Of a stretch of DNA of 64,000 nucleotides, positions 31,597 to 48,208 are shown one piece after another (the stretch's first letter is position 1; every line of letters starts with the position of its first letter). Origin of the DNA: Streptosporangium sandarakinum (lineage in GTDB: Bacteria > Actinomycetota > Actinomycetes > Streptosporangiales > Streptosporangiaceae); assembly GCF_013409935.1 (NCBI RefSeq), contig NZ_JACCCO010000003.1, positions 806,001-870,000 on the forward strand. Reading direction: 5' to 3'. The translations under genes were made by a program, and so were the position numbers. Below the pieces are notes generated by a model. It saw nothing but the letters and a program-made list of their open reading frames with translations. It was not told the DNA's origin and searched no databases.

Positions 31597-33570
31597 TCAC
31601 GCCGCACCCCGCTCCTTCCCCTCGCGACGATGTTCCTGCGTGATCCACTTCTTCCCTTCCGCGGCGATCCCCTCCAGTACATGCAACGTACGGCGAAGGC
31701 CCGAAGCGTCCAGCGTCGCCTCGGACACCGTTCCGGGCTCCTCTCCCTGCTGGAGTTCCTCCGTCTCCGGCTCCGTCACTTTGACACGGACTTCTTGGCC
31801 GTTGACGAGCGCGAGCTCGAACACCTGCCCGCCGTCGCCCCCGTGGCTCACCCGTACGGCTGCGATCGTCTCGAAGCGATAGTTGGCCCGCCGCAGGATA
31901 TGAGACGAGCCTTGATCGAAATCGAGTGTGGCAGTGATCTCGCGTACTCCATCCGTGGTGAGAAGGAATATGAGAAGTTGGTATTTCTTGTAGCGCCAGG
32001 GGCCGTTCCGTACCCGCGCGCGGACACCTGAGGCGGCGGGCGTCTCGATGAAGGCGTGGGCGATGACGTCGCTTATCTTCAGCCTGTAGTGCTGCAACGC
32101 TTCGTTCAACAGCACTTTCCGGTCGCAGTCCAGCCACGCGGCCATTTCCCGGTCCTTGGGCTTGTCGGCCAGCTTCGCCCGCCACCGAGCGAAGGCCGCC
32201 TCGTCGGTCTCCTTCACCTGCATGCTCTCCACCGTGTCGGCGGCATATCTGCGACGCTCCAGGATGATGTGCAGCCAGGCGCGGGCGGCCATCCATCCGC
32301 TTGCGAGTGCGATGCTCGTTGAGCAAGCCGCACTCAGAGGGCTGGCCGGCACCGCGCCACCCACCGCCCAAAGCCCTCCGGCGACGAAGACGACCGATCC
32401 GAGGAGCGTCACCGCCTTTACTGACGGAGGCGTGGCGAGCTCCTCGCGGTAGCTCCAGAGCATGCCCTTCTCCCAGCGTGTCTTGACGTCACCGGCTCGA
32501 TGCCGGATCAGCCAGGCGATCTTCTCGACGCCGATCCTCTTCTCCCGGTATACCTCGACCACCTCGTCGCGAATGCTTCTACGGATCCCCGCCGTCGTAG
32601 CCAGCCAGAAATCGCGGTCGACACCGCGTGGAACGTATTTGGCGAAGTAGTAATCGAAACGGTGGTCCACCTGCCGTGCGAAGCCGTCGGGTGATGCGTT
32701 GGTTGCGCGCTGCCGAGGCGTCCCGTATTCCTTGTCTTTCGTACGGCGTCGTACGACGCGGAAGCGCCACTCCACACCGTCGCGGACGCCGAAGAAGCCG
32801 CCGATGATGCTCAGTAGGTATGCGAGAAGCACGGAGATCCGGCCTGCCTGGACCAGCAGGTAGCCGATGTGCACCGTCGCCCCGGCGAGGACGGCCGTCG
32901 CCGCCACCGCCTGGACCCAGGTGGACGGGGGTGTCGCGGCCGACTGCGGGCTGCGGGCCTGCGGCCTGGTCGGACTCGGTTCGAAGAACTTCCAGACCCG
33001 GTTCACCCGGTCGCCGGTCATTCGCTCTGTCTTAGCCAGTTTCCATACCTGATGCCACATCTGGTCCTTGAGCGACCCTTCAAGGAACGACTCCAGGTGC
33101 CGCAGAATCAAGGTGCGCTGGAGCGAGCCGAGTGCGTCAACCTCCTTCAGGAGGACCTGGCTGTCCGCATCGGATTTCCTCGCGGAGTCCAGCAGGTGGT
33201 GAAGGGTCTTCAGTCCCTCCGCCCACTCGTCGTCACCGGTGATGTGCCTCCTGCTCTGCGCGTTCTGGAGCATGGCGGACTCTTCTTTGGACAGCTCGCG
33301 CCGCGTTCTGCCGCTCACCAGGGCGAGCAAGCGGTAGAAACGGACCCTGTCGGTGCGGTACCCGGCCATGAAAGCTTCGTTGATGAGCTGTCGCGCCCGA
33401 TCGGCCATATCACCATCAAGGCACTGGACACCGGTCTCGAACTTATCCCGGGGCGAGGCGTCCGCGAATGTCATGTAGGCGTTGACGTCGCCATGGACCG
33501 TTCCCACCTGTGCTCCGACGTACGCGGAACCATCGGCGGTGTTCGTCGTGGAAGCGCCCGGAGCCGTCAT
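31597..33570 (-). CDS. Multi-TM protein with N-terminal VGxQxGTVxG motif module
   Basis: A 657-residue protein of unknown family. Residues about 12-32 contain GSAYVGAQVGTVHGDV, matching a motif in the neighbouring nucleosidase. Residues 40-200 are a helical domain (FETGVQCLDGDMADRARQLINEAFMAG; FYRLLALVSGRTRREL). Two hydrophobic hairpins lie near 225-265 and 390-435, followed by a charged C-terminal region with beta-rich segments (RYKKYQLLIFLLTTDG). The ATG overlaps the nucleosidase stop (ATGA). It could be a membrane effector or receptor recruited through the shared motif. GC is lower than in flanking genes, consistent with acquisition. Confidence 0.8.
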   Translation of the reverse strand: MTAPGASTTNTADGSAYVGAQVGTVHGDVNAYMTFADASPRDKFETGVQCLDGDMADRARQLINEAFMAGYRTDRVRFYRLLALVSGRTRRELSKEESAMLQNAQSRRHITGDDEWAEGLKTLHHLLDSARKSDADSQVLLKEVDALGSLQRTLILRHLESFLEGSLKDQMWHQVWKLAKTERMTGDRVNRVWKFFEPSPTRPQARSPQSAATPPSTWVQAVAATAVLAGATVHIGYLLVQAGRISVLLAYLLSIIGGFFGVRDGVEWRFRVVRRRTKDKEYGTPRQRATNASPDGFARQVDHRFDYYFAKYVPRGVDRDFWLATTAGIRRSIRDEVVEVYREKRIGVEKIAWLIRHRAGDVKTRWEKGMLWSYREELATPPSVKAVTLLGSVVFVAGGLWAVGGAVPASPLSAACSTSIALASGWMAARAWLHIILERRRYAADTVESMQVKETDEAAFARWRAKLADKPKDREMAAWLDCDRKVLLNEALQHYRLKISDVIAHAFIETPAASGVRARVRNGPWRYKKYQLLIFLLTTDGVREITATLDFDQGSSHILRRANYRFETIAAVRVSHGGDGGQVFELALVNGQEVRVKVTEPETEELQQGEEPGTVSEATLDASGLRRTLHVLEGIAAEGKKWITQEHRREGKERGAA

Positions 33571-33929
33571 GACAACCCCTGGGCCAGGCCGATGATGATC
33601 GCCAGCTCCGCGGCCAGTTCCGCCACGTCGCCGATGAGCCCGCGCAGCTTCTTGAGCGCCAGTGTCAGAGTGCCCCGGCTCTGCGGCGTGTCGGACTCCA
33701 GCGCCTTGTCAGCCACGGTGAGCTCCGCCTCCGCCGCCGTGTAGGTGTCGTCGTCCAGGTGGCCGCCGGCCCGTGCTCGCTGGAGCCGGGTGCGGAAACC
33801 GGCGAGCGCCTCCGCCAGGTCGGTCGGCGGGACCGGCTCCGGAGTGATCCGGATCCCGCCGTACACGGTGCCGGCCTGCACTCCCACCCGCGCGTTCCCC
33901 TTCGCGACGTTCCTGATCGTCTCGGGCAT
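33567..33929 (-). CDS. Possible internal-start product: motif plus helical adaptor alone (120 aa)
   Basis: Inside the nucleosidase gene, ATG at 33929 (Met265) has a perfect GAGGAGG centred at 33936-33942, six bases upstream. Such a site is unlikely to occur in the right frame and place by chance. The product would begin MPETIRNVAKGNARVG and consist of the shared motif and the C-terminal helices only, placing the motif at the N-terminus as in the adjacent TM protein. This is a proposal from sequence alone. Confidence 0.45.
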   Translation of the reverse strand: MPETIRNVAKGNARVGVQAGTVYGGIRITPEPVPPTDLAEALAGFRTRLQRARAGGHLDDDTYTAAEAELTVADKALESDTPQSRGTLTLALKKLRGLIGDVAELAAELAIIIGLAQGLS

Positions 33930-34721
33930 GGTCGGCCTCCTCGTCTCTGTCGTGCGTCGGTCGTCGTCCTGCGCCTCGGCGGACAGTTCCTCTGCCAGGG
34001 ACACGGCGAACGCCGCCGCGTTGGCCACCGCCCGTTGCTGCCATCGTTCGCGGTCGGTGTCCTCCTTGGTGCCGTCGGCCCGGTCGCTGATGCCCCGGAC
34101 TACGACCACCGGCAGAGACCGGTTCAGATGCGCGGCCTGCGCCACACCGGCACCTTCCATCTCGACCGCCTGAGCGTCGTTGTAGTGCTCCCGGATCCAG
34201 AGCGCGTGCACGGAGACCTTGGAGTTCAGCACCACCTCGCCGGCGGCGATCGGCCCGAAGTGCACCTCGGGACCCCGGTCGTGAGCCGAAAGGCCCCGCT
34301 TCCAGGAGCCGTCACGGTCAATGTGCCGGGCGATCTGATCGACGACGTGCGGGGTCTCCCAGACACGGGGACGGCTTTTGAAACCGTCATCCTCGCTCGT
34401 GCCTCCGTGGAACGCGTAAACGTGCGTCGCCACCACCACGTCGCCGAGGGCGACGTGGGAGTGCAGGGCTCCCGCCACGCCCACGAAGAGCAGGGCAGCC
34501 GGGGCGAACGTGTTGATGGCGCGTTCGGCCAGCACCGCCGCCGCCTGGTTGCCCTTGCCGACGTGGGCCAGCACGATCGGGCACCGGCCACCCGCGAGCC
34601 GACCGACCTCGAAGCGGGTGCCCTGCGGATGACGGCGTGGACGCGGATCGACCAGTTTCTCCTGGACCGCCTGATACTCCAGGTCCAGCGCGGTGAGGAT
34701 CACGATCGGGGGACGGCTCAC
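33567..34721 (-). CDS. MTAN/PNP-like nucleosidase with C-terminal motif and helical adaptor
   Basis: A 384-residue protein. Residues 5-245 are a nucleoside phosphorylase/MTAN domain: VILTALDLEYQAV, FVGVAGALHSHVALGDVVVA, catalytic AVEMEG (E189) and VRGISDRAD (D213), both expected for hydrolysis of an N-glycosidic bond. Residues 275-291 hold GNARVGVQAGTVYGGI, then a helical bundle runs to the end (LAEALAGFRTRLQRARAGGHL; LKKLRGLIGDVAELAAEL). The GTG start lies 1 base after the Nudix stop, with GAGGAG 8 bases upstream. A second ribosome site precedes Met265. Substrate unknown; nucleotide-related signalling or toxic NAD/nucleoside cleavage is inferred from context. Confidence 0.85.
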   Translation of the reverse strand: MSRPPIVILTALDLEYQAVQEKLVDPRPRRHPQGTRFEVGRLAGGRCPIVLAHVGKGNQAAAVLAERAINTFAPAALLFVGVAGALHSHVALGDVVVATHVYAFHGGTSEDDGFKSRPRVWETPHVVDQIARHIDRDGSWKRGLSAHDRGPEVHFGPIAAGEVVLNSKVSVHALWIREHYNDAQAVEMEGAGVAQAAHLNRSLPVVVVRGISDRADGTKEDTDRERWQQRAVANAAAFAVSLAEELSAEAQDDDRRTTETRRPTMPETIRNVAKGNARVGVQAGTVYGGIRITPEPVPPTDLAEALAGFRTRLQRARAGGHLDDDTYTAAEAELTVADKALESDTPQSRGTLTLALKKLRGLIGDVAELAAELAIIIGLAQGLS

Positions 34722-34722
34722 T

Positions 34723-35451
34723 TCACTGCTCCTCTGTGCTCGACGACTCGGCGGGCCGGACCATCGGCGGATACAGGACCGCGCGCGGACCGGCTTTGAA
34801 CAGTCGGGCCGGTCGTCCGGTCGCGGCCTTCCGGGCCGAGCCGACCGGGACGATGAAGCCATCGGTCTTCTGTACCTTGCGATAGAAGTTCCGGGGGTCG
34901 AGGGGGATCCCCCATACGGCCTCGTACACCTCCTGAAGCTCGGTGATCGTGAAGATCGGCCCGCAGAACGCCGTCGCGATCGCGGAGTGCTCAAGCGTGA
35001 CGCGGGCGCGTTCGACGCCGTCCGCGACGATCCGCCGGTGGTCGAAGGCGAGCTCCAGCTCTCCGGAGAGCACCCGGTCGACCGGCTGCCACCTGGCGTC
35101 GGCCGCGTCCGTACCGGCCGTCGGCTCGGGAAGGCGCGGCGCGATCGCCAGGTAGGCCACCGACACCACCCGGCCGCGCGGGTCACGGCCGGGCTCGCCG
35201 TACACGCCCAGCTGCTCCAGGCGCAGGGTCTCGGCGTCCAGGTTCGCCTCCTCGGACAGCTCCCGGTGGGCCGCGGCGGTGAGGTCTTCCTCAGGGTGCC
35301 GGAGGAAACCGCCGGGCAGCGCCGACGCGCCCCTGTACGGTTCGACGCCGCGCTCGACGAGCAGCACATGCAGCCGCGATCTACGCAACGTCAGGATCAC
35401 CAGGTCGACGGCGAGCAGTACGGCGGGGGCCACCCAGCGATCGTCGGTCAT
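34723..35451 (-). CDS. NrtR-like Nudix-domain transcriptional regulator
   Basis: A 242-residue protein. Residues 10-150 form a Nudix domain (ALPGGFLRHPEEDLTAAAHRELSEEANL, LGVYGEPGRDPRGRVVSVAYLAI). Residues 165-230 form the NrtR-type winged helix (FTITELQEVYEAVWGIPLDPRNFYRKVQKTDGFIVPVG). NrtR proteins sense ADP-ribose or related NAD products through the Nudix fold and repress NAD genes. Here it heads an operon with the nucleosidase and TM protein, with only one base between stop and next start. A TGTCA-N3-TGACA element 19 bases upstream is a likely operator. The effector is inferred, not shown. Confidence 0.88.
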   Translation of the reverse strand: MTDDRWVAPAVLLAVDLVILTLRRSRLHVLLVERGVEPYRGASALPGGFLRHPEEDLTAAAHRELSEEANLDAETLRLEQLGVYGEPGRDPRGRVVSVAYLAIAPRLPEPTAGTDAADARWQPVDRVLSGELELAFDHRRIVADGVERARVTLEHSAIATAFCGPIFTITELQEVYEAVWGIPLDPRNFYRKVQKTDGFIVPVGSARKAATGRPARLFKAGPRAVLYPPMVRPAESSSTEEQ

Positions 35452-35469
35452 GCGATGAGACTAGCTTTT

Positions 35470-35482
35470 TGTCAATCTGACA
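35470..35482. promoter_or_regulatory. TGTCA-N3-TGACA inverted repeat upstream of the Nudix regulator
   Basis: A 5-bp inverted repeat with a 3-base centre, set in an AT-rich patch (AGCTTTTTGTCAATCTGACA) unusual for this genome. It starts 19 bases upstream of the regulator's ATG, so autorepression is plausible. Confidence 0.55.
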
Positions 35483-35573
35483 GAAATAGCGTTCCGGTGC
35501 TGTTTCCGTTGCCTGCCCTTTCGAGCCGACGGTCCGCCCCCGCACCCGTGCTACGCGCGCGGGGACGGACCTG

Positions 35574-38500
35574 CTACACGAACGGCCTGAACCGCGGCAG
35601 CGGGTGGAGATGCAGCCGCCCCTCCGGAAGCTCCGCCCGGGCCAGTTCCGCCAGGTGGTCGTGGTGGGTGAAGACGATCATCTGGAAGCGGTCGGCCATC
35701 TCCTCCAGCACGCGCAGGGTCGCGCGGGTGCGCTGGTCGTCGAAGGTCATGAAGATGTCGTCCACGACGAAGGGGAGGGTGTGCCCCTCCTCGGCGTACC
35801 GCTCCAGCGACGCCAGCCGCAGTGCCAGGTAGAGCTGGTCCCTGGTGCCCTCGCTGAGCTGCTCGACCCTGAGGGGCTGGTCGCCGCGCCGGGCCAGCAC
35901 GACGGGGGAGTCTCTGTCCTCGTCCAGTTCCAGCCCGGCGTAGCCGTCCAGGGTCAACCGCCTGAAAAGCGCACTCGCCCTGGTCAGGATCGGGTCCTGT
36001 TGCTCCTGCCGATACTTCTCCATGCACGAGGTGACGATCTCTCTGGCCACCCGCAGTCGGAGGTACTCCTCGCTCTCCTCGATCAGGGCCGCCGCGGCCG
36101 TCTCGGCGTTCGCCGCGGCCTGGGCCGCCTCGGCCGACCCGTCGAGCTGCGCGAGCCGGATCCTCCTCTCGCCGAGAAACGCCGACTGCTCGGTCCGCCG
36201 CCTCTCCAGGTCCTCGATCCGGTCCGCGAGATCTTCCAGGTCCGCGTGGAGACGGTCGGGGTCGGTGGCCGACGCCTCCTTCTCCAGGGCATGGAGACCT
36301 TCCTCCGTGACGGGGAGCGTCACGGTCACCTCCGAGAGGGCGGCGGTCAGCTCGGTGTGCCGCCGGCGGCGCCGTACGGCCTCGCTCAGCGCTTCGGCAC
36401 CGTCCACCCCCGCTCTCCCGACGAGAGCCGCGAGTTCCGCGTCCAGGTCCGCGGTGGTGCGCAGATGGTGATCGACGTCGGCCGCCAGCGCGGCGTGCCC
36501 GGCCTGGAGGCGGGCGCGCCGGTCGGCGGCCGAACGGTTCTCCTGCGCCTCCCGGTGCAGGTCCGCCACGAACCCGTACCGTTCGGTCTCGTCGTCGGGG
36601 AGCCGCCTGCCGCACTCGCGGACGACCCTCTCCAGGGAGGCGCGGAACCGCTCGACCACGGCGGTGTCCTGCTCCATCTCCCTGTCGCTCCTGACGGCCG
36701 AGTCGACCGCGGCGGACACCTGTTCGAGCGACTCCAGGCGGGTGACGGCCTCCGCGGTCTCCAGCCCGGAGGCCAGCCCGGCGCGGGCCAGCAACCCGTC
36801 CCAGTCGGCCCGCCAGGCGTCCAGCTCATGTTCGCCCTGGGTGACCTGCGCCTCGGCTTCCGCCAGCTCGTCGCGGGCGGTGGCGACCCGGTCGGCCAGG
36901 GCGGCGCGTTCCCGCGCCTCCTCCTCCTGCCGGGTCAGGCTGGTCTCGGCGACCTCTCGCAGCTCAGGCAGCTCCGCGAGGGCGCTGTCGGCGCCGAGCG
37001 AGGACGCCTCTCCCGTGACCCGCAGCACCTCGCGAAGCCGCGCGATGTGCTGGGAGGCCTGCTCCCGGCGGGAGGCGAGCCCGGCGCGCACGGCCGCGAG
37101 CCTGCCGGCGTCCTCCCGGAGCCGTTCGGCGGCCCGGAGCACGGCGGGGGCCGCCTTGGGGGTGGCGGGCCGGGGACCGGCGAAGTCCTCCCACAGGCAG
37201 GCCCATTCGCCCGCCAGCCTCTCGGCGTGGCGATCGAGTTCCGCCTCTTCCCGGGCGCACTCGGCCAGCCCGCGCTCTCCCTCGCCGATCTGGAGTTCGA
37301 GCCGGTAGCGCTTGGCGACCCGGTCCGCCTCCTGGCGCAGCCTGTCGGCGAGATGGTCGGCCCGGGCGACGGCCGGCGCGAACTCGTCCACCCGCTCCCG
37401 GCGCCCGCCGCGGATCTCCCGCCAGAGGGCGTCGCGGTCCGACCGGGCGGCGGCGAGGTCGTCCCCGGTGGGCGGCGGGTCGACGTTCAGCAGGCCCGCC
37501 AGCTCCAGGCGGTCGCCGTCGAGCCGCTTGGCCAGCTCCTTCGTCCGCCTGGCCAGGTCGCGCCGGTCCCGCTTGAGCTCGTCGAGCGCCTCGGCGTGCG
37601 CACCGATCTCCGCTTCGGAAGGCACGGTGACACTTCCCGCCTCCGCCACGGGAGGCATCGCCAGCTTCAGGTCGCGCAAGCCCTGCTCGACGGCGCCGCG
37701 GAGCCGCCGCTCCTCCTCGTCGTCGGCCACCATACGGCTGAGCAGGTCATCGGGGATCGCGGCGAGGACGGCGCGCAACGGCCCGGTCTCCTCGGCGGCC
37801 GGAAGCCCGCTGAGCTTCTTCTCCGCCTCCTCCAGCTTCCGCCGCAGCCTGTCCGTCGCGCGCCGGTCCCGAGCCAGCGCGGTCTCCAGCTCCGTGTGCC
37901 GGTCGTGCAGTTCCTGGGCCCGCTTCCGCACCGATCGGGGCACGTCATACCGGGCGGCGTCTTCAAGGCGGGCATCGGGGTGTACCTGGCGCAGCAGTGC
38001 CTCCGCCTTCCGCCGCGCCTCGGCGGCGTCTCCGGCCGACTTCGCCAGCCGCCGGGCCGCGTTCCGGGCGTCCCGGTGATCCTGGAAAAGGGATTCGATC
38101 GTGCCCGCGACGGCCAGCAGACCTTCGTCGACGACCAGCCGGCTCATCTCATCCTCTGCCGCGGCGAGGCGCCGCCGGGCGTCGTCCAGAGTGTTCCGCG
38201 CGCTCCCCAGCTCCTCCAGCAGCCCGGGGAGCCGGTCAGTGACCTCCTGCGGCGCGAGGACGCCCTCCGCCCGAACCTCCTCGATCTGAGAGAGCAGGAA
38301 GCGGCGCCGGTCCAGGGCGGGGAGCGCCTGGCTCAGCCGTTCCAGGCGGGACTCCTCCCTCCTCGCCCCCTTCAGCTCACCGGCCAGCCGGGCGAGAGCC
38401 TCCTCGGCCTCGGCGACCTCACGCTCCCGCCGGGCGTACTCCTCCGGCCGGAGGAGCGCCGTGCGCTGCCGCTCCCGGGCGCGGCGCAGCTCGGCGATCC

Positions 38501-39044
38501 GCGTGTTGATCACCGGGCGCTGGCCCCGCTGCTTGTACAGCTCCGCCATGCGCTCGTCGATGGCCTTCAGGGTCTCGGACAGCCGGAGCCCGGAGCGCGA
38601 GGCGGTCAGCGCCTGCCGGAAGTCCCCGCCGCCGTGCGCCAGTTCCTCACCGCCCCGGCGGAGCTCCGCGCTGGTCAGGGCGAACACCGAGCCGAAGGTG
38701 GTCCGGTCGACGCCGCCGAGGGCGGCGTCCAGCTCCGCCTGGCCCACCGCCGAGCCGTCCGGGGCGAGCAGTGGCGTGTTGCGGGTCTTGGTCCTGATGA
38801 ACTCCAGGGTGCCGCCGTCGCTCCTTCTGATCAGCGCGCCGAGCCGCAGCGCCCCCTTGGCGTGCACGAAGTCGTACGGCGAGCGGACGTCGATGCCGTA
38901 CAGGAGCTGGTCGAGAGCGTGCAGGGCGGTCGACTTGCCCGCCTCGTTCGGCCCGGTCACCAGGTGGATGCCCGGAGCCGACAGGTCGAGGGACATTCCG
39001 GTGAAGGGGCCGAACGCCACCAGGTCCAGCCGGTCGATCCTCAT
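35574..39044 (-). CDS. SbcC/YhaN-like SMC-type ATPase
   Basis: A 1156-residue ATPase. The N-terminal head holds MRIDRLDLVAFGPFTG and Walker A GPNEAGKST. A very long coiled coil fills the middle. The C-terminal head holds the signature LSEGTRDQLYLALRLA, Walker B LPFVVDDIFMTFDD and the H-loop in IVFTHHDHL. No CxxC zinc hook is present at the coil apex, so it is closer to YhaN than to classic SbcC. With the SbcD-like nuclease (4-bp ATGA overlap) it should process DNA ends or hairpins. The alternative ATG 24 codons upstream lies inside the nuclease gene. Confidence 0.9.
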   Translation of the reverse strand: MRIDRLDLVAFGPFTGMSLDLSAPGIHLVTGPNEAGKSTALHALDQLLYGIDVRSPYDFVHAKGALRLGALIRRSDGGTLEFIRTKTRNTPLLAPDGSAVGQAELDAALGGVDRTTFGSVFALTSAELRRGGEELAHGGGDFRQALTASRSGLRLSETLKAIDERMAELYKQRGQRPVINTRIAELRRARERQRTALLRPEEYARREREVAEAEEALARLAGELKGARREESRLERLSQALPALDRRRFLLSQIEEVRAEGVLAPQEVTDRLPGLLEELGSARNTLDDARRRLAAAEDEMSRLVVDEGLLAVAGTIESLFQDHRDARNAARRLAKSAGDAAEARRKAEALLRQVHPDARLEDAARYDVPRSVRKRAQELHDRHTELETALARDRRATDRLRRKLEEAEKKLSGLPAAEETGPLRAVLAAIPDDLLSRMVADDEEERRLRGAVEQGLRDLKLAMPPVAEAGSVTVPSEAEIGAHAEALDELKRDRRDLARRTKELAKRLDGDRLELAGLLNVDPPPTGDDLAAARSDRDALWREIRGGRRERVDEFAPAVARADHLADRLRQEADRVAKRYRLELQIGEGERGLAECAREEAELDRHAERLAGEWACLWEDFAGPRPATPKAAPAVLRAAERLREDAGRLAAVRAGLASRREQASQHIARLREVLRVTGEASSLGADSALAELPELREVAETSLTRQEEEARERAALADRVATARDELAEAEAQVTQGEHELDAWRADWDGLLARAGLASGLETAEAVTRLESLEQVSAAVDSAVRSDREMEQDTAVVERFRASLERVVRECGRRLPDDETERYGFVADLHREAQENRSAADRRARLQAGHAALAADVDHHLRTTADLDAELAALVGRAGVDGAEALSEAVRRRRRHTELTAALSEVTVTLPVTEEGLHALEKEASATDPDRLHADLEDLADRIEDLERRRTEQSAFLGERRIRLAQLDGSAEAAQAAANAETAAAALIEESEEYLRLRVAREIVTSCMEKYRQEQQDPILTRASALFRRLTLDGYAGLELDEDRDSPVVLARRGDQPLRVEQLSEGTRDQLYLALRLASLERYAEEGHTLPFVVDDIFMTFDDQRTRATLRVLEEMADRFQMIVFTHHDHLAELARAELPEGRLHLHPLPRFRPFV

Positions 39045-40276
39045 CGGTGGCTCCGCCCTTCCGTGACCATGGATTCCAGCAGTTCGAAGGCGTCGTCGGC
39101 GATCCGCAGCAGCCACTGCGGGTCACCGAGGCGGGTGCCGTCCCGGTCGAAGACGTCCGGCGGCAGCGCCGGGTAGAGCGGGGTCGTCTCGACCAGTTTC
39201 CGCAGGGCGTCCCCGTCGGCACGCAGCGCGTCGGCGGTGCGCCGCAGGTCGGGGAGGATCCCGGCGGCCCCTTCGTCCGGGGCGTCCGGCGGCCGGGTCT
39301 CGATCCGCACCTTCTCCACCCACAGCTCACCCTGGTCGGTGGCGGCCAGGCGCACCTCGTTGAGGAACCGGGGACGCTCTCGCCACAGGGGCAGGTGCGC
39401 GGGGCTGGAACCGGTGACGCTGACCCGGACCGCGTGCAGCCGGTCACCGGGGATCTCCCTGAGCCCGCGGACCACCAGGTCGACGGCCGAATCGACGTCG
39501 GCGGCCCCGGAGACGTCGATCCTCAGGTGTTCCCAGCGGGCGACGTCCAGGTCGTGGTGCACGGCGGAGACGACCTTCAGGTCGTCGACGGTGACCAGCG
39601 TGCAGCCCTTGGGTCCGGTCTCCCGGGCGTGCCTGCCCTGGATGTTGCCGGGGAAGACGATCCACGGGTCCTCCGAGACCACCTCGCGGTGGTGCACGTG
39701 ACCCAGCGCCCAGTAGTCGTAGCCCTTGGCCGCGAGATCGTTCACCGAGCAGGGTGCGTAGCGGTCGTGCCCCTCCCGCCCGGTCAGCGCGGTGTGCAGC
39801 AGCCCCACGTTGAACAGGTCGGCTCGCGGGGCGGGATAGGCCAGGGAGAGGTTGTCGGTGATGTCGGACCGGGCGAAGCCCTGACCGTGCACGGCCAGGC
39901 CGCGCGCCTCGTCGAGGATGGTCTGCGGCCCGCTGGTGTCGAACAGGTGGACGTTGGACGGCAGCCGCAGCTGCTTGGTCATCCGGTTCTGCGCGTCGTG
40001 GTTGCCGTAGACCATGTAGACCTGGATGCCCTCGCGGCCGAGGCGGGACATCTGCCCGGCGAAGAACAGGCCGGTCTGGTAGTCGGGCCAGGTGCCGTCG
40101 TAGACGTCGCCGGCCAGCAGCACGGCGTCCACCGACTCGGACACGGCCAGGTCGACCAGGTTCTCCAGGGCGAGCCTGGAGGCGGTCCGCAGTTTTTCCG
40201 CCGGAGCGCCCTCGTAGGCCGACAACCCGCGCAGCGGGCTGTCGATGTGCAGATCAGCGGCATGGAGAAGTTTCAC
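39041..40276 (-). CDS. SbcD/YhaO-like DNA repair exonuclease (metallophosphoesterase)
   Basis: A 411-residue nuclease subunit. Metal-binding motifs of the Mre11/SbcD fold are HAADLHIDSPL (residues 5-15), LAGDVYDG, YGNHDAQ, a histidine segment in LLHTALTG and GHVHHRE. The C-terminal 130 residues would contact the ATPase partner. GTG start with GAAGGA five bases upstream. Divergent from nothing close: 288 bases upstream without a gene. It is translationally coupled to the SMC-type ATPase, and the pair is expected to act in double-strand-break repair. Confidence 0.92.
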   Translation of the reverse strand: MKLLHAADLHIDSPLRGLSAYEGAPAEKLRTASRLALENLVDLAVSESVDAVLLAGDVYDGTWPDYQTGLFFAGQMSRLGREGIQVYMVYGNHDAQNRMTKQLRLPSNVHLFDTSGPQTILDEARGLAVHGQGFARSDITDNLSLAYPAPRADLFNVGLLHTALTGREGHDRYAPCSVNDLAAKGYDYWALGHVHHREVVSEDPWIVFPGNIQGRHARETGPKGCTLVTVDDLKVVSAVHHDLDVARWEHLRIDVSGAADVDSAVDLVVRGLREIPGDRLHAVRVSVTGSSPAHLPLWRERPRFLNEVRLAATDQGELWVEKVRIETRPPDAPDEGAAGILPDLRRTADALRADGDALRKLVETTPLYPALPPDVFDRDGTRLGDPQWLLRIADDAFELLESMVTEGRSHR

Positions 40277-40564
40277 TCTGGTCCTTCTCTGGGGAAGTCG
40301 CACGCCCTGGAGGGTGGGGCGCTCGTCACGGGAGAGACATGCGCAGACCACCGATGATGACGTGCAGGAAGGAGGAAAGTGGTGCGAATGGTGAAATCGT
40401 TGGTTCGTTCCACCGGTACGTGAGCAGGGACGGAACGGGAGCGCGCCCGTGGCCGGACTCGCCGGATGGCGACGGCGCCGCACGGTCACCCGTTGGCCGG
40501 GCCCGCCCTCGACGGCTGGGACCGCACCGACGGCCGGGCTTGCTTCGGCAGCCGGGCCCGAGGG

Positions 40565-41176
40565 TCAGTTGCGGGTGAGGGACCACGAGCCGTCGGCGTG
40601 GACGGTGACCAGGCGGGTGCCCGACGGCAGCAGGGCCTTGCCCTTGTAGGAGCCGATCTGGTTGAACAGCAGGTCGCCGTAGGAACCCGGGCGGGTGTAG
40701 CTCTGGACGATGAAGTTGCCCTCACCGGTGAAAGACGAGCGGACGGTCCGCAGGCCGCGGGTGGGGGAGAGCTTGAGCACCTGGTCGCCGGTGCCGTGGA
40801 CGGTTCCGGTGCACCAGCAGCGGGCCTTGCTCAGCGGCTTGAACACCGCGCTCCACGCGCCGTCGGCTTTGATCTCCAGCGCCGCCGTTCCCATGCCGGC
40901 GCGGGCGTTGTACAGGACCGTGCCGCTGTAGGGGCCGATCTCGTTGACCAGCAACTCCTCCTTCTTCCCGGCCGGGGTGACGGTGAAGACGATGAAGTTG
41001 GCCTCACCGTCGTGCCGGAGCTGCAGCAGGCCAGGGGTCTTGGTGAGGCGGACGCGGACGACCTCGTCGCCCTCGCCCCGGTAGGTGGTGTCGGCGTGGG
41101 CGGTGCCGGCGCTCACGGCGCCGGTGGTGAGGGTGGCGGCGGCCAGGACGAGCGCGGCCAGAACACGCTTGAACAT
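40565..41176 (-). CDS. Secreted protein with an internally duplicated domain
   Basis: A 203-residue product with a signal peptide (MFKRVLAALVLAAATLTTGAVSAGTAHA, cleavage likely after AHA). The mature part contains two related segments of about 75 residues. Each starts (D)(E/Q)V(V/L)(R/K)(V/L), continues with (G/E)(A/G)NFIV, then (E/D)LL(V/F)N(E/Q)IG(P/S)Y(S/K)G and ends with a (A/G)DG(A/S)WS strand. The pattern suggests two beta-sandwich repeats. GAGGAG lies four bases before the ATG; the frame is open 15 codons further. No enzyme motif. Function unknown. Confidence 0.75.
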   Translation of the reverse strand: MFKRVLAALVLAAATLTTGAVSAGTAHADTTYRGEGDEVVRVRLTKTPGLLQLRHDGEANFIVFTVTPAGKKEELLVNEIGPYSGTVLYNARAGMGTAALEIKADGAWSAVFKPLSKARCWCTGTVHGTGDQVLKLSPTRGLRTVRSSFTGEGNFIVQSYTRPGSYGDLLFNQIGSYKGKALLPSGTRLVTVHADGSWSLTRN

Positions 41177-41271
41177 GGGGCTCCTCAAGGGGGATGGGCA
41201 CACCGGGGTACAGCCGTTCACAGAGCCTTACCCGAAGGTACGGTGTGACCGACGCCACCTAGTAGAGCACG

Positions 41272-41288
41272 TGTTGACACAATCAACA
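41272..41288. promoter_or_regulatory. Inverted repeat upstream of the methylase-hsd operon
   Basis: TGTTGA (41272-41277) and TCAACA (41283-41288) with 5 bases between, in an AT-rich patch between the divergent secreted-protein gene and the methylase gene. TTGACA at 41274-41279 could also be a -35 box. Candidate operator for the HTH-bearing methylase or another regulator. Confidence 0.45.
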
Positions 41289-41372
41289 AACAACTTCCGT
41301 GACATTGCCCGGAGAAGACGCTCAGCGCTAGTGTCTGGTTCACGTCCGAAGAGACCCCGGGAGGCGGCCGAC

Positions 41373-43529
41373 ATGCGGCGAGACGTCCAGGTGACCGCTG
41401 CCGACATCGCGCGGCTGGCCGGGGTGGGCCGGGCGGCGGTGAGCAACTGGCGCCGCCGCCACGCCGACTTCCCGCAACCCGTCGGCGGTACGGCCACCAG
41501 CCCGGCCTTCTCCCTGGCGGAGATCCGCGCCTGGCTCCTCTCACCCGGCTCGCCCGGCTCCGCCGGCCATGATCGGGAGCTGCCGTCCGACGAGTGGCTC
41601 TGGCAGGACCTGCGGGCCGTCGCCGGTGACGACGACCTCGCCGACCTGATCGCCGACCTCGGCGCGTTCCTCGTCTACACGCACCGCCGCGCCCGCGACT
41701 GGGCGGAGCTCGCGGCCGGCGACGACGCGGCGGTCGCCGCCGCTCTGCCCGAGAGGATCCGCGAGGTCGTGCCGGCCTTCCCCGCCGTCCTGCCCCCGGA
41801 CCGGGTGCCGCTGATCCGCGCCGTCGCCCGGCTCGGCACCGAGCGCGGCGCATCCGGAGCCTTCGAGTTCCTGCGCGAACGCTACTTCGAGACGCACTCC
41901 CGGCGGCTCCACCCCACCCCGCGCGAGATCACCGAGCTGAGCCTGGAACTGGCCGGTCTCGGCGCAGAGGTGCCGACCGGTCCCCGGGTCCCCGGTGACG
42001 CCGGACCGGAGCCGGCCGGTTCGCGGGTCCGCGGCGTCCCCGGCCCGGAGTCGCCGGGCCGGCGGGTCCGCAGTGTCCTCGATCCGGTCTGCGGCGCCGG
42101 TGACCACCTCCTCGCGGCGCTGGACCGCTCATCCGCCGTCCGGGTCATGGGCCAGGAGGCCGACCCGGCCGTCGCCCGGCTCACCGCCGTACGGCTCGCC
42201 CTGCGCGGCGACGACACCGACGTCCGCACCGGAGACTCCCTGCGCGCCGACGCCTTCCCCGGCGAGACCGCCGACGCGGTGGTGTGCAACCCGCCGTTCA
42301 ACGACCGCGCCTGGGGATACGAGGAACTGGCCTCCGACCCGCGCTGGGAGTACGGCCTGCCGCCCCGGATGGAGTCCGAGCTCGCCTGGGTCCAGCACGC
42401 ACTGGCCCACCTGCGGCCGGACGGCGTCGCCGTCCTGCTGATGCCACCGGCCGTGGGCAACCGCAGGTCCGGCCGCCGCATCCGCGGTCAGTTGCTGCGC
42501 CGCGGCGCGCTGCGCGCCGTCATCGGGCTGCCCGCCGGAGCCGTCCCCAACGTCGCGGTTGCCCTGAACCTGTGGGTGCTGTGCAGGCCCGCCGAGCCCC
42601 GCACCCCCGGCCACGTCCTGATGATCGACACCTCCGGCCGGCCAGGCGACTACGCCGAGGCGGCTGTCGCGGCCTGGCGGCGGTTCGACGCCGGGGAGGA
42701 GCTGGACGAGCCCGGGGTGAGTCGTACGGTGCCGGTCATCGACCTGCTGGACGACGAGATCGACCTGACCCCCGCCCGACACCTGTCCACCGCCGCGCAC
42801 CTGCCGCCCGAACGGGTCACCGGCACCCGCGACCGCCTCGCCGACCTGCTGCGCACCGTCGCCGAGCTGACCCCCGCCGTCCGGACCGAACCGCGCGACC
42901 TGCCGCTCGTACCGCTGTCGGAACTCCTGCGGCGCGGCATGCTCACCCTCCACCAGCAGGCGCCCGTCCGCCCCGGTGAGGAGACCGAGGTGGCCGACGG
43001 CTCCGCCGTGCTGACCGCCGAGGATGTCGTGCTCGACCGGCCGCCCTCCGGCCGCACCCCTGAGCACGCGGTGCGGCGGGAGATCCTGACCCGGCCGGGC
43101 GACGTCGCGGTGCCCCAGGTCGTCCGCGTCCCTGTCGCCCGGGTCCTCACCCGGGGCGGCGCCGTGCTAGGCACCCACCTGCACCTCCTGCGGCCCGACC
43201 CCGAGGCGCTGGACGCCGACTTCCTGGCCGGCTTCCTGAGCGGCCCGGCCAACCTCCGCCACTACGGCCCGGCGTCCAGCACCGGCATCCGCGTGGACGT
43301 CCGCCGGGCCGAGGTGCCGCTGCTGCCCATCGAGGAGCAGCGCGCGTACGGCGAGGCGTTCCGGCGGCTGGCCTCCTTCTCTGCCGCGCTGCGGGAGACG
43401 GCCGAAGTGGGGGAGAATCTGATCCGGCTGACCGCCGACGGGCTCACCCACGGTGGCCTCCAGCCACCCGCCGGTGACGACTCGTCCGGCCCCCCGCACG
43501 ACGTGAAGAAGGAGAGCCGTGAGCGGTAA
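41373..43529 (+). CDS. HTH-containing N6-adenine DNA methylase with S-like C-terminus
   Basis: A 718-residue protein. Residues 5-55 carry a helix-turn-helix (VTAADIARLAGVGRAAVSNWRRRH). Residues about 190-480 form a type I-like methylase: motif I LDPVCGAGDHLL (D237), catalytic NPPF (N306 in VVCNPPFND), then VAVLLMPPAVGNRRSG. Residues 530-690 resemble a specificity-subunit half (VPLSELLRRGMLTL; GDVAVPQVVRV; LLPIEEQRAYGEAFRRL). It overlaps hsdM by 11 bases. A stand-alone sequence-specific methylase, self-regulating through its HTH, is one reading; a second modification subunit for the hsd system is another. GGGAGG precedes the ATG. Confidence 0.85.
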   Translation: MRRDVQVTAADIARLAGVGRAAVSNWRRRHADFPQPVGGTATSPAFSLAEIRAWLLSPGSPGSAGHDRELPSDEWLWQDLRAVAGDDDLADLIADLGAFLVYTHRRARDWAELAAGDDAAVAAALPERIREVVPAFPAVLPPDRVPLIRAVARLGTERGASGAFEFLRERYFETHSRRLHPTPREITELSLELAGLGAEVPTGPRVPGDAGPEPAGSRVRGVPGPESPGRRVRSVLDPVCGAGDHLLAALDRSSAVRVMGQEADPAVARLTAVRLALRGDDTDVRTGDSLRADAFPGETADAVVCNPPFNDRAWGYEELASDPRWEYGLPPRMESELAWVQHALAHLRPDGVAVLLMPPAVGNRRSGRRIRGQLLRRGALRAVIGLPAGAVPNVAVALNLWVLCRPAEPRTPGHVLMIDTSGRPGDYAEAAVAAWRRFDAGEELDEPGVSRTVPVIDLLDDEIDLTPARHLSTAAHLPPERVTGTRDRLADLLRTVAELTPAVRTEPRDLPLVPLSELLRRGMLTLHQQAPVRPGEETEVADGSAVLTAEDVVLDRPPSGRTPEHAVRREILTRPGDVAVPQVVRVPVARVLTRGGAVLGTHLHLLRPDPEALDADFLAGFLSGPANLRHYGPASSTGIRVDVRRAEVPLLPIEEQRAYGEAFRRLASFSAALRETAEVGENLIRLTADGLTHGGLQPPAGDDSSGPPHDVKKESRER

Positions 43530-45537
43530 CCACCAGAGGTACGCGGACTTCATCTGGTCGGTCGCCGACCTGCTGCGCGGCGACTACCGCCAGTCGGAGT
43601 ACGGCAAGGTCATCCTGCCCTTCACGCTGCTGCGCCGCATCGACTGCGTGCTCGCCCCCACCAAGCAGGCGGTCCTCGCCAGGGCCGGGGAACTGGAGGG
43701 GCGGGGCCTGCCGGAGCAGGCCGTGGACCGGATGCTGCGCGACGTGGCCGGGGCGAGCTTCTACAACCGCAGCCCCCTCGACTTCGGCAGGTTCACCGGT
43801 GACGCCGAGAACGTCGCGCGGAATCTCCGCGCCTACATCGGCGGGTTCTCCGGCGGCGCTGCCGAGGTGCTGGACAGGTACCGCTTCGACGAGCAGATCA
43901 CCCGCCTCGACGAGGCCGGGCTGCTCTACCTCGTGACCGCGAAGTTCGCCGAGATCGACCTGCACCCGGACGTCGTCGACAACCACCAGATGGGCTACAT
44001 CTTCGAGGAGCTCATCCGGAGGTTCTCCGAGATCTCCAACGAGACCGCGGGAGAGCACTTCACTCCCCGCGAGGTCATCAAGCTGATGGTCAACCTCCTC
44101 ATGGCCCCCGACGACGCGGACATCATGACGCCGGGCATCGTCCGCACGATCTACGACCCGGCCTGCGGCACCGGCGGCATCCTGTCGGCCGCCGAGGAGC
44201 ACATCACCCGCTACAACACCCACGCCACGGTCAAGGTCCACGGCCAGGAGCTCAACCCCGAGTCGTGGGCCATCTGCCGCTCCGACATGATGCTCAAGGG
44301 CCAGGACCCCTCCCAGATCATCCTCGGCAACTCTTTCGTCCACCGCGGCCACGCCGACAAGAGGTTCGACTACCTCATGGCCAACCCGCCGTTCGGCGTG
44401 GAGTGGAAGAAGGTGCAGAAGCAGGTCGAGGACGAGCGCGACACCCTCGGCTGGGCCGGCCGGTTCGGCGCCGGGACACCCCGGATCAACGACGGCTCGT
44501 TCCTCTTCCTCCAGCACATGATCTCCCACATGAAACCGGTCGACCAGGGCGGCTCCCGCATCGCGATCGTCTTCAACGGCTCCCCGCTGTTCACCGGCGC
44601 GGCCGGCTCGGGGGAGTCGGAGATCCGCCGCTGGATCCTGGAGAACGACTGGCTGGAGGCCATCGTCGCCCTGCCCGACCAGCTCTTCTACAACACCGGC
44701 ATCTCCACCTACTTCTGGATCCTGTCCAACCGCAAGGCTCCCGCCCTGAAGGACAAGGTGATCCTGCTGGACGCCCGGGAGTGCTGGACGAAGATGCGCA
44801 AGTCCCTCGGCGACAAGCGCAAGATGATCCCCGACGAGCGGATCGACGAGCTGACCGCGATCTACAAGGACGCCCTCGCCGTCGCGGCCGACGCCGACCA
44901 CGAGCACCACGCCAAGGTGAAGGTCTTCCCGCGCCACGCCTTCGGCTACCAGCGCATCACCGTCGAACGCCCGCTCCGCCAGCGCTTCGAGGTCACCGAC
45001 GCGACCGCCGACGCGGTCGCCGAGGCCAAGGCCATCGCCAGGTTCGACCACCGCGACGCGCTGCTCGCCGCCCTGCGCTCCCTGCCCGGTACGGCGTGCG
45101 GCACCAAACTGGAGTTCGCCGGCAAGCTGGACGCCGCCCTCGCCGAGCACGGCCTGAGCAAGCTCCCCGCCCCGGTGGAGAAGGCGGTCTGGGCCGAGGT
45201 CGCGGTCGGCGACCCCGAGGGCCAGCTCCAGACCGACCGGAAGAACAACCCGCTGCCCGATCCCGACCTGCGGGACAACGAGAACGTAGCGCTGATCTCG
45301 ATGAACTCCACCCCGGCCGAACGGGAGGCGGAGATCGAGGAGTATCTGCGCCGCGAGGTGCTGCCGCACGTGCCGGACGCGTGGGTGGACCATACGAAGA
45401 CGAAGCTGGGGTTCGAGATCCCGTTCACCCGGCATTTCTACGTGTACACGCCGCCCCGGCCGTTGGAAGAGATCGACGCGGAGCTTCGGGCGCTGGAGAC
45501 GGAGATTCAGAAGCTCTTGGGTGAGGTGACTCGATGA
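43519..45537 (+). CDS. hsdM: Type I restriction-modification methyltransferase subunit HsdM
   Basis: A 672-residue M subunit. The N-terminal helical domain HsdM_N (YADFIWSVADLLRGDYRQSEYGKVILPFTLLRRID) precedes the methylase core with GEHFTPREVIKLMV, motif I DPACGTGG (from D213) and NPPF (N289). Together with HsdS it methylates adenine at the recognition site in both strands; with HsdR it forms the restriction complex. GTG start with AAGGAGAG ahead of it inside the previous gene, and a 4-bp ATGA overlap with hsdS. Length is typical for the longer actinobacterial HsdM. Confidence 0.97.
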   Translation: MSGNHQRYADFIWSVADLLRGDYRQSEYGKVILPFTLLRRIDCVLAPTKQAVLARAGELEGRGLPEQAVDRMLRDVAGASFYNRSPLDFGRFTGDAENVARNLRAYIGGFSGGAAEVLDRYRFDEQITRLDEAGLLYLVTAKFAEIDLHPDVVDNHQMGYIFEELIRRFSEISNETAGEHFTPREVIKLMVNLLMAPDDADIMTPGIVRTIYDPACGTGGILSAAEEHITRYNTHATVKVHGQELNPESWAICRSDMMLKGQDPSQIILGNSFVHRGHADKRFDYLMANPPFGVEWKKVQKQVEDERDTLGWAGRFGAGTPRINDGSFLFLQHMISHMKPVDQGGSRIAIVFNGSPLFTGAAGSGESEIRRWILENDWLEAIVALPDQLFYNTGISTYFWILSNRKAPALKDKVILLDARECWTKMRKSLGDKRKMIPDERIDELTAIYKDALAVAADADHEHHAKVKVFPRHAFGYQRITVERPLRQRFEVTDATADAVAEAKAIARFDHRDALLAALRSLPGTACGTKLEFAGKLDAALAEHGLSKLPAPVEKAVWAEVAVGDPEGQLQTDRKNNPLPDPDLRDNENVALISMNSTPAEREAEIEEYLRREVLPHVPDAWVDHTKTKLGFEIPFTRHFYVYTPPRPLEEIDAELRALETEIQKLLGEVTR

Positions 45538-46826
45538 GCTGGAAGCGCATTCCCCTTCGTGGAGCGGCCGAGGTCGCCCTGGGCCGTCAGCGATCGCCCC
45601 AGCACGCCGAGGGCCCGCACATGGTGCCGTACCTCCGGGCCGCCAACGTCAAGGACGGTCAGCTGGCGCTCGACGACGTGCTCACGATGAACTTCACCCC
45701 GCAGGAGCAGCGGATCTTCTCGCTACGGCCCGGGGATGTCCTGGTGACCGAGGGAAGCGGCAGCCTGTCGTCGGTCGGCGCGGCAGCCGTCTGGAGCGGA
45801 GAGATCGAGGGGACGGTCTGCTTCCAGAACACTCTGTTGAGGCTGCGGCCTCGTCCCGGTGTCACCGACGGGAGGTTCCTGGGGTGGTGGGCACGCTCGG
45901 CGTTCGGATCGGGGCTGTTCGCCTCGGTGGCGACCGGGGCGAACATCTACCACGTGAGCGCGGAGCGAGTCCGGGCACTTCCCATCGAGGTGCCATCCCT
46001 GGAAAAACAGGGGAGGATTGCTGATTTTCTTGACGGCCAGGTCACTCAAACGCTTCAGATTCAAGTTATGCGCGCGAAGCAGCGGCTAATTTTGAATGAG
46101 CGCGCCGCATCTTTGATAACCGAAGTTCTTGTTCCGGGGGTAGCAGGTGATACGTGGCCCTGGAACTGGTTGCCGGAGATGCAAGACCGGCCCGTCGTGC
46201 GTCTTGGGTATCTGTGCCGGCTGCAGTCAGGCATCACCATGGACAGTTCACGTGCCATGGACGGCGATGTCGTGACACGTCCATACCTGCGAGTGGCCAA
46301 CGTTCAGGCTGGACATGTCGATCTAAGCTCGCTCGCTGAGGTGACGGTTCCCCGTAAAGTCGCTGAACGAAGCACGCTGCGCACCGGTGATGTACTGATG
46401 ACTGAGGGCGGTGACCTCGACAAACTCGGCCGAGGAACGGTATGGAGCGGTGAGATCGAGGACTGCCTGCACCAGAACCACGTGTTCGCTCTACGCCCTG
46501 ATCTGAAGAAGCTGGACCCCGAGTATCTAGCGCTCATGACTCAGACGCTGCACGGACGCTGCTACTTCGAGAGCACAGGGGTCAAGACCACCAATCTCGC
46601 TTCCACCAACAGCAGCAAGATTCTTGGGTTCCCCGTTCCTTTGCCTTCTGTGGAGCAGCAGCGGCGTCTTGTCAGGCAAGTCGAGGTACAGATGGCGGCG
46701 ATCGACAATGCTCGGCGGGCGTTGGATGAGCAGTCTCGGCTTCTACGGGAGCGACAGCAAGCGTTGATCACGGCGGCGGTCACGGGACAGATCGATGTCA
46801 CGACAGCGCGTGGGGTCATGGACTAG
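45534..46826 (+). CDS. hsdS: Type I restriction-modification specificity subunit HsdS
   Basis: A 430-residue S subunit with two target-recognition domains (about 1-150 and 215-365), each followed by a conserved helical spacer (LEKQGRIADFLDGQVTQTLQIQVMRAKQR and VEQQRRLVRQVEVQMAAIDNARRALDEQSR). It sets the DNA sequence read by the M and R subunits. Base composition drops sharply at about 46000, at the first spacer, and stays low to the end, which suggests that the second half came by recombination with another S gene. hsdR is not adjacent but about 9 kb downstream. Confidence 0.95.
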   Translation: MSWKRIPLRGAAEVALGRQRSPQHAEGPHMVPYLRAANVKDGQLALDDVLTMNFTPQEQRIFSLRPGDVLVTEGSGSLSSVGAAAVWSGEIEGTVCFQNTLLRLRPRPGVTDGRFLGWWARSAFGSGLFASVATGANIYHVSAERVRALPIEVPSLEKQGRIADFLDGQVTQTLQIQVMRAKQRLILNERAASLITEVLVPGVAGDTWPWNWLPEMQDRPVVRLGYLCRLQSGITMDSSRAMDGDVVTRPYLRVANVQAGHVDLSSLAEVTVPRKVAERSTLRTGDVLMTEGGDLDKLGRGTVWSGEIEDCLHQNHVFALRPDLKKLDPEYLALMTQTLHGRCYFESTGVKTTNLASTNSSKILGFPVPLPSVEQQRRLVRQVEVQMAAIDNARRALDEQSRLLRERQQALITAAVTGQIDVTTARGVMD

Positions 46827-46844
46827 GTGGCGTTTCTCCGCATT

Positions 46845-46868
46845 CAAGAAGCGTCCTTTCGCTTCTTG
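46845..46868 (+). terminator. Hairpin terminator after hsdS
   Basis: Perfect 9-bp stem CAAGAAGCG / CGCTTCTTG with a 6-base loop, 19 bases past the hsdS stop. No U-tract follows. Its position suggests the methylase-hsdM-hsdS transcript ends here and that hsdR is transcribed separately. Confidence 0.7.
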
Positions 46869-46975
46869 GGTTCGAGCTGCTTTACGGGTCGGCGCTGAAA
46901 CCTCTCCAGGGCCAGTAGGTTCCCTGTGTTTCCTCGCCCCTCGCCAAGCTGAAAAAATGCGGGGTTTGGTGTGCG

Positions 46976-46989
46976 TTGAAGTCCGGCAA
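46976..46989 (+). promoter_or_regulatory. TTGAAGTCCGGCAA element (copy 1)
   Basis: Identical 14-mer to the one at 47124, within the 320-base region between hsdS and the XRE gene. Candidate binding site for the XRE regulator. Confidence 0.5.
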
Positions 46990-47123
46990 TTGACGCATGT
47001 CCTGATGGTTCGCTCTGAGCGCTTCGCCTTTCTTAGGGCGATCATGTTCAGCGCGCCGAATTCCAGTTACCTTGGGTGTTCGATCGGTTACGACTGGCGA
47101 GCGCCGGGTTGTCGGCGCTGTCC

Positions 47124-47137
47124 TTGAAGTCCGGCAA
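47124..47137 (+). promoter_or_regulatory. TTGAAGTCCGGCAA element (copy 2)
   Basis: Second identical copy, ending 10 bases before the XRE start and overlapping the ribosome-site region. A near-identical third copy occurs at 52242. Confidence 0.5.
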
Positions 47138-47147
47138 GGAGGGCGAA

Positions 47148-48157: not shown

Positions 48158-48169
48158 CCCGCCCCCGTC

Positions 48170-48196
48170 GGCCGCCGAGGTGTCCCCTCGGCGGCC
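48170..48196 (+). terminator. Strong hairpin after the XRE-DUF397 pair
   Basis: Perfect 11-bp stem GGCCGCCGAGG / CCTCGGCGGCC with a 5-base loop, 12 bases past the DUF397 stop. It marks the end of the regulator operon. DNA composition changes just after it. Confidence 0.85.
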
Positions 48197-48208
48197 GGTG
48201 AACCTCAA

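Follow-up and report, generated by a model that had tools for sequence, protein, structure and literature searches.

Why should a Nudix-type regulator, a nucleosidase and a multi-spanning membrane protein without a named family be encoded side by side in an actinomycete? The question is raised by a locus of Streptosporangium sandarakinum that lies in a stretch of 64,000 nucleotides (assembly GCF_013409935.1, contig NZ_JACCCO010000003.1, positions 806,001 to 870,000), hereafter called the window, whose own numbering is used throughout. An earlier note on this DNA had proposed that three minus-strand genes at 31597-35451 must be made together and that they form a nucleotide-sensing conflict system. 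Gene A (34723-35451, 242 residues) encodes a Nudix domain and an NrtR winged helix and is a proposed autorepressor; gene B (33567-34721, 384 residues, GTG start) encodes a nucleosidase of the PNP/MTAN type with a C-terminal motif and a helical tail; gene C (31597-33570, 657 residues) encodes a protein with a motif, TPR-like helices, four transmembrane (TM) segments and a PH-like domain. The tight coupling is confirmed, since the stop of A and the start of B are 1 base apart (34722) and B and C overlap by ATGA (33567-33570). Domain matches, alignments and TM prediction also bear out the description of the trio as a conserved set of NrtR-type regulator, nucleosidase with intact catalytic residues and membrane protein. 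We propose, with slightly less than even confidence, that the set is a self-contained, NLR-free conflict system of actinomycetes, probably anti-phage or programmed-death, in which C would be the receptor or scaffold, B the effector and A the switch.

The three genes are found together in related genomes. The earlier note had named rare co-occurrence as one of the results that would speak against it, and its proposal survives in this respect: among 148 loci encoding C, the fetched stretch contains both A and B in 131, neither in 17, and exactly one of them in 0. The first 113 of these loci are matches to a profile of C, with short or broken fragments of C left out, and comprise 98 loci with A and B, 15 with neither and 0 with only one (profile scores >100). 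The 35 further loci, from named genomes, include 33 with both genes and two with neither, one of which lies at a contig edge while the other has a truncated C; they were drawn from 80 of the 179 relatives listed, 45 of the 80 being already among the 113. At 87 of the 98 loci with A and B, the open reading frame (ORF) picked automatically upstream of C shares 4 bases with it, and A is divergent in locus L026. At locus L302, ~1.65 kb separate B from C, with the motifs described below still matching (score 79). Of 100 relatives, our genome included, 14 carry C, and the 13 with a strong match to B (E <1e-100) are all among these.

The enzymatic part of B, at residues 5-242 (33996-34709), matches Pfam PNP_UDP_1 (E 1e-37). 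We observe that Glu15, the Glu-Met-Glu triplet at 187-189 and Asp213 are identical in all 132 aligned rows, window included, in agreement with the earlier note, which had called EMEG and D213 intact. The closest solved relatives by profile are methylthioadenosine/S-adenosylhomocysteine (MTA/SAH) nucleosidases (3eei, E 4.3e-21), and the alignment with 3eei puts Glu15, Glu189 and Asp213 on the catalytic residues, which we take to have the roles of Glu12, Glu174 and Asp197 in E. coli. B also matches the PN-superfamily effector of PADLOC (E 4.9e-20). PF01048 effectors of known defence systems degrade (d)ATP (PMC10952713), and according to a review, PNP_UDP modules hydrolyse ATP and TIR-related ones NAD+ (PMC12881547); here and below, published work is cited from the portions of the papers that our literature search returned.

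Beyond this domain, B carries the motif NVAKGNARVGVQAGTVYGGI at residues 271-290 (33852-33911), the part that gives the best ungapped match to the N-terminus of C in relatives, followed by a C-terminal tail at residues 300-384 (33570-33824), which is helical by eye and ends in a hydrophobic stretch according to hydropathy. The tail is missing in L026 and L027 and present in the 11 other B proteins of the first alignment. At four loci (L077, L078, L080 and L082), B and C are separated by an additional small gene whose product consists only of the motif and a tail like that of B. Because motif and tail stand there as a separate small protein, they may be a mobile module.

No family of Pfam or NCBIfam reaches its cut-off with C: the one Pfam match reaches 13.1 of 25 bits, and there is no NCBIfam match. 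In an AlphaFold2 model (pLDDT 77 overall, <50 at residues 1-29), a disordered motif is followed by TPR-like helices, two TM hairpins and a PH-like domain. The motif, NTADGSAYVGAQVGTVHGDV, occupies residues 10-29 (33484-33543) of the N-terminus predicted to be disordered, and the TPR-like helical repeats residues 40-195 (32986-33453). The two hairpins, at residues 215-282 (32725-32928) and 382-466 (32173-32427), are drawn from the model and from hydropathy; their hydrophobic helices give four predicted TM segments, consistent with the multi-TM protein named in the earlier note. The PH-like domain at residues 502-657 (31600-32067) comprises seven strands and C-terminal helices and agrees in the model with the PH superfold, in which seven strands are closed by a C-terminal helix. 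A Foldseek search with the whole model returned nothing at E <=0.001, and VIA-align gave TPR-like and TM-helix matches with middling Z.

What connects the enzyme to the membrane protein is a motif of ~20 residues, VGxQAGxVxGxV, common to the C-terminus of B and the N-terminus of C. In the best ungapped alignment of the B tail with the C N-terminus, the 98 loci with A and B reach a mean of 53.6, compared with 24.4 for shuffled C N-termini and 25.4 for the catalytic domain of B. The score exceeds 37, the maximum of both controls, in 83 of the 98 pairs, and 93 alignments fall on a VGxQ-type core. The 33 further loci give a similar picture (54.5 for the motif pair, 25.3 for shuffles, 26.3 for the catalytic domain). 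A previous count over 112 loci, other partners included, gave 54.1 versus 24.6, with 83 pairs above the best of 336 shuffles; its upstream ORF was picked automatically, wrongly for at least L027, L079, L092, L172 and L175, and none was picked for L069. L182, with a partial C, was left out of both comparisons. The linker next to the motif in B varies, whereas the motif itself is conserved (V279 in 127, G280 in 124, Q282 in 128 and G288 in 120 of 132 rows). The GxQxG core is reminiscent of RHIM-like amyloid signalling motifs in the literature: it is present in the published PP core NxGxQxGxN (PMC9815663), and a BASS3 peptide of Frankia contains GVQVG (PMC8086366).

The motif is scarce outside these genes. 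A profile of 15 observed motifs found, in the genome of S. sandarakinum, B (E 2.2e-10), C (E 5.8e-9), one small ORF (E 0.0022) and nothing else <0.01; the 15 include the two of the window, so that B and C match by construction and the scarcity of others is the informative part. In 60 relatives, all 14 motif matches with E <1e-6 fall in B/C loci. The idea that the motif is a genome-wide signalling code was rejected, as the matches in our genome are B, C and the small ORF. The latter (L185:1237-1572, at G000:C1 near 2915416) encodes 111 residues with two similar motifs by eye, TAVQVGRVV and NARVGLQADEVRGGLTI, and precedes an ORF that is Nudix-like by eye. As the sole other match <0.01 in this genome, it could be a motif decoy or an adaptor.

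Loci without A and B show what else can stand beside C. At 13 of the 17, the gene just before C encodes a different protein that has a C-terminal motif by eye: seven TIR proteins, five SARP-like proteins and one that is unassigned (L088). Pfam TIR_2 is present in the four TIR partners tested (E 1.6e-13 to 1.2e-10), the three others being their phmmer relatives, and Pfam BTAD, a SARP-family domain, in the three SARP-like partners tested (E 1.8e-7 to 1.1e-8), with two more as phmmer relatives. All seven TIR partners keep W-x-R-x-E-[IL], whose Glu is presumably at the expected place of the catalytic Glu of TIR NADases. The L088 partner had been considered a cyclase by eye, an assignment that was dropped as Pfam, NCBIfam and the PDB gave it no support. 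On the motif itself, 8 of the 13 swapped pairs beat the best shuffle; the score of the L092 pair was taken on the wrong stretch and so does not count as a motif score. The upstream regulators differ as well, with an XRE-type protein with a weak TPR match before a TIR partner and an XRE-DUF5753 protein before a SARP-like partner (one protein of each, by Pfam). On a FastTree phylogeny of C, partner class changes at least four times. The remaining four of the 17 loci are L028, with no recognised partner, L262, at a contig edge, and L182 and L306, with a truncated C.

Given the polarity of the motif, and since one slot is filled by various effector-like proteins, we place C in the position of a receptor or scaffold and B in that of an effector. 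The order suggested in the earlier note, namely sense, cleave and act at the membrane, is accordingly not the best supported one, as the motif polarity makes the enzyme the effector and the enzyme slot is swapped between PNP, TIR and SARP-like proteins. In the mechanism that we propose, A would repress the operon until the level of ADP-ribose or a related nucleotide increases. C, as membrane receptor or scaffold, would use its TPR-like and PH-like parts to sense a trigger, and its N-terminal motif would then serve as a template for that of B (or of the TIR protein), so that the enzyme clusters and becomes active. The activated enzyme would strip the base from a nucleoside or nucleotide, thereby starving or stalling the cell. 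By analogy with published pairs, the coupling through the motif is probably RHIM/BASS-like and possibly amyloid.

The regulator A matches Pfam NUDIX (E 2.4e-16) and NrtR_WHD (E 6.2e-15), both above cut-off, and scores 113.8 bits with the NCBIfam model NtrR, under the 400-bit equivalog cut-off. In its Nudix box, Glu55, Arg63, Glu64, Glu67 and Glu68 are kept in 128-130 of 130 rows, which suggests that A may still hydrolyse its ligand; the box has one extra residue before Glu55 with respect to GX5E, and position 70 is degenerate (Gly in 53 of 130). Before A, at 35466-35486 and ~31 bases from its start, we find the palindrome TTTCTGTCA-GAT-TGACAAAAA, a candidate operator with no strand of its own. 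The consensus across loci is TTYYTGTCA-N3-TGACARRAA, located mostly 31-32 bases from the start. Its core TGTCA-N3-TGACA occurs with <=2 mismatches in 93 of 96 upstream regions (95 loci whose match to A starts near the N-terminus, plus the window), 45 of them exact, versus 3.3% of mononucleotide shuffles; the further loci add 33 of 33, for a total of 126 of 129. The whole genome contains a single perfect 21-base site, the one before A, and three sites at 3 mismatches versus one for a reversed-pattern control. Because this single perfect site precedes A itself, A looks like a dedicated local switch of the operon acting on a putative operator, rather than a repressor of an NAD regulon. NrtR of Mycobacterium smegmatis represses its own gene, comes off when ADP-ribose is present and is no longer active as a hydrolase (PMC6800001). 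In other conflict operons, a role as ADP-ribose sensor has been suggested for NrtR-type Nudix switches with a helix-turn-helix (HTH) (PMC9503650).

The distribution of C is patchy. Its profile matches 114 of 341 genomes of the family Streptosporangiaceae and 4 of 16 of the genus, fragments included; in a sample of the class it matches 29 of 394 genomes, 12 of these in the family, and in a sample of the phylum 2 of 396, our genome being one. Among the matches listed, the nearest named relatives of C are those of Streptosporangium pseudovulgare (94%), S. canum (79%) and S. minutum (72%). A complete A-B-C set, with both motifs and an imperfect palindrome, is also present on the mobilizable Streptomyces plasmid pLBRS, where the genes are annotated as a NUDIX protein, an MTA/SAH nucleosidase and a hypothetical protein. 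The earlier note had read transfer from the reduced GC of the membrane protein gene: the reduction is real (64.3% for C and 70.9% for the window), but 10.6% of same-size windows are equally low, so we discarded it as proof of transfer, for which the patchy distribution and the plasmid copy are better evidence. C was not found in the phage records searched, which is neutral for our proposal.

The surroundings of the operon in this window include known defence genes, as the earlier note had suggested looking for. A cluster at 41085-51590, ~6-16 kb from the operon, contains a type I methyltransferase (41085-43529) and specificity subunit (45534-46826) of a restriction-modification system, an XRE-DUF5753 regulator, and NsnABC (48388-51590; NsnA, NsnB and NsnC by PADLOC). 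Beside the type I genes lies an ORF of 663 residues (43444-45435) with no Pfam or PADLOC match at the limits used. On the A side, SbcC-like and SbcD-like genes, named by eye, occupy 35574-40489. This SbcCD-like pair is absent from the related Streptosporangium loci L016, L017 and L018, where the operon abuts sequence matching the window from 40.55 kb onwards; either the pair was inserted here or it was lost in the three related loci.

Several observations weigh against a receptor-effector system built on the motif. A strict GxQxG core on both sides is found in only 42 of 112 loci, and the best alignment lies off the motif in five of the 98 (L069, L156, L172, L175 and L176). Four SARP-like pairs (L081, L083, L093 and L094) score only 34-40, and L028 lacks a recognised partner altogether. 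Of the 96 pairs whose motifs were typed, 82 have matching subtypes in the partner and in C, yet the tree contains only 3-5 subtype switches (median sign-test p 1), so that the agreement is explained by co-inheritance; with so few independent switches, co-evolution of the motifs was rejected as proof of contact. Relatives of the B domain at weaker significance (E 3e-53 to 8e-21) occur without C in 5 of 100 relatives, so that an enzyme of this type is by itself no sign of the system. PADLOC matched B alone, with no match for A or C, and neither Pfam nor the model reveals an NTPase domain in C, which is hence unlike an NLR. The defence-island context, moreover, covers this window alone.

These points leave room for other readings, one of which keeps C as a receptor or scaffold and differs in how the motif works. 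An ordinary heterotypic docking strand, anchoring the enzyme at the membrane without amyloid templating, would suit a motif that is short and partly degenerate and whose subtypes differ by one-residue indels; in the Microbispora pairs L152, L153 and L155 the two motifs are mismatched in length by one residue, which a templated register might tolerate badly. We consider docking of this kind possible though doubtful, given the likeness of GxQxG to tested amyloid motifs, the predicted disorder of the stretch holding the motif in C, and a polarity of effector and partner that is the same as in BASS and fungal pairs. That polarity, effector C-terminus with receptor N-terminus, also bears on whether C could be a downstream pore, opened when B, the TIR protein or another partner makes a nucleotide-derived signal, with the motif only holding enzyme and channel together. 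C does have two TM hairpins with long helices, it is the constant partner, as expected of a common executor, and 2TM SLATT proteins, proposed to be pores, are at times found with PNPase and TIR effectors in published conflict systems (PMC7159879, PMC9503650). Nevertheless, no SLATT 2TM domain (Pfam) or channel family matches C at E up to 1, the common motif suggests direct contact instead of a diffusible signal, and the swapped partners include a SARP-like protein (DNA-binding and BTAD) that is not known to make a nucleotide signal, all of which makes a pore unlikely.

The nature of B invites a more mundane explanation, in which an operon for nucleoside salvage or for methylthioadenosine/futalosine recycling would be run by a metabolic regulator of the NrtR type, with an unrelated membrane partner. 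Indeed, the best NCBIfam scores of B are those for MTA/SAH nucleosidase (109.3 bits) and futalosine hydrolase (79.5 bits), and its catalytic residues are kept; both scores are nevertheless below their cut-offs (169 and 124.7, respectively). The patchy distribution, the TIR and SARP-like proteins in the place of B, the single perfect operator belonging to the operon itself and the copy on a mobilizable plasmid make a housekeeping role very improbable, and it was rejected as the principal explanation. At the other extreme, our proposal could be extended: C would be a new class of NTPase-less membrane immune receptor that seeds, at the membrane, an amyloid-like assembly of effectors which release a base and can stand in for one another (nucleosidase or TIR NADase), the Nudix switch reading the nucleotide damage that the effectors cause, in a positive-feedback death circuit. 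This we regard as quite unlikely.

Amyloid-type immune signalling is known in animals, in fungi and in bacterial NLR pairs. If the NLR-free conflict system proposed here exists, such signalling would also start from a membrane protein without an NLR and would use interchangeable nucleotide-destroying effectors. It would give a function to the family of C, whose pLBRS member is recorded as hypothetical. The three genes would be a genetically simple model, to which A would add a directly testable nucleotide-responsive switch and the single-site promoter a usable reporter.

We found no published set of NrtR-type regulator, nucleosidase and membrane protein in the literature searched, which excluded most subscription papers and preprints and consisted mainly of titles and the starts of abstracts, so that this is no proof of absence. 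Ternary conflict systems with MoxR, vWA and GTPase components are distinct, as Pfam detects no MoxR, vWA or DO-GTPase among A, B and C. The PNP effectors Cap17 and Detocs are said to degrade (d)ATP, a finding credited to Rousset et al. in 2023. They share with the present system a PF01048 enzyme as a probable immune effector, in line with the PADLOC match of B, whereas their partners, as described in the part of the source available, are not among A, B and C (PMC10952713). Closer on the regulatory side are the Nudix/WYL-regulated ADP-ribose conflict systems, in which an NrtR-like Nudix-HTH protein is likewise the likely ADP-ribose-sensing switch of a conflict operon; in the accessible description these carry ADP-ribosylglycohydrolases, where we find a nucleosidase and a membrane partner (PMC9503650). 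NrtR of NAD metabolism resembles A in its Nudix and winged-helix domains and in the palindrome before its own gene, but the mycobacterial palindrome is given as GTTTTCGA-N7-TCGAAAAC in place of TTYYTGTCA-N3-TGACARRAA, and the catalytic Nudix-box residues, unlike those of the M. smegmatis protein as reported there, are mostly kept in A (PMC6800001). Moreover, a regulon of NAD metabolism genes was not seen, the single perfect site in the genome being the one before A's own operon.

The likeness is greatest to amyloid signalling pairs. Dyrka et al. reportedly described bacterial amyloid signalosomes in 2020, in which BASS motifs connect a Bell effector with an NLR. In these signalosomes the motif lies at the effector C-terminus and the partner N-terminus, and varied effectors fill one slot (PMC7889193). 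As in our loci, the genes of BASS pairs are adjacent or overlapping, one short motif is shared in the same polarity, the hosts are multicellular actinomycetes, and TIR is among the effectors (PMC7889193, PMC8086366, PMC12261475). The present system differs from the pairs so described in that its partner is TPR-like, 4-TM and PH-like and not an NLR, its effector is usually a nucleosidase and not Bell, and it has a dedicated NrtR-type regulator; the motifs were compared by the GxQxG core alone, not by BASS1-10 profiles. Fungal PNP_UDP effectors offer the corresponding enzyme: they carry a C-terminal amyloid motif and are paired with NLRs that bear the motif N-terminally, so that in PNP_UDP/PUASM with NACHT NLR, as here, a PNP-superfamily enzyme has a C-terminal Gly/Gln motif matched at its neighbour's N-terminus (PMC9815663). 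Relative to the PUASM motif given there (FxGxGxQxxGxGxF), our system is bacterial, has another motif and has a partner that is not an NLR (PMC9815663). Because C is not an NLR and A appears to serve its own operon instead of an NAD regulon, we file the set under neither BASS nor NrtR without qualification.

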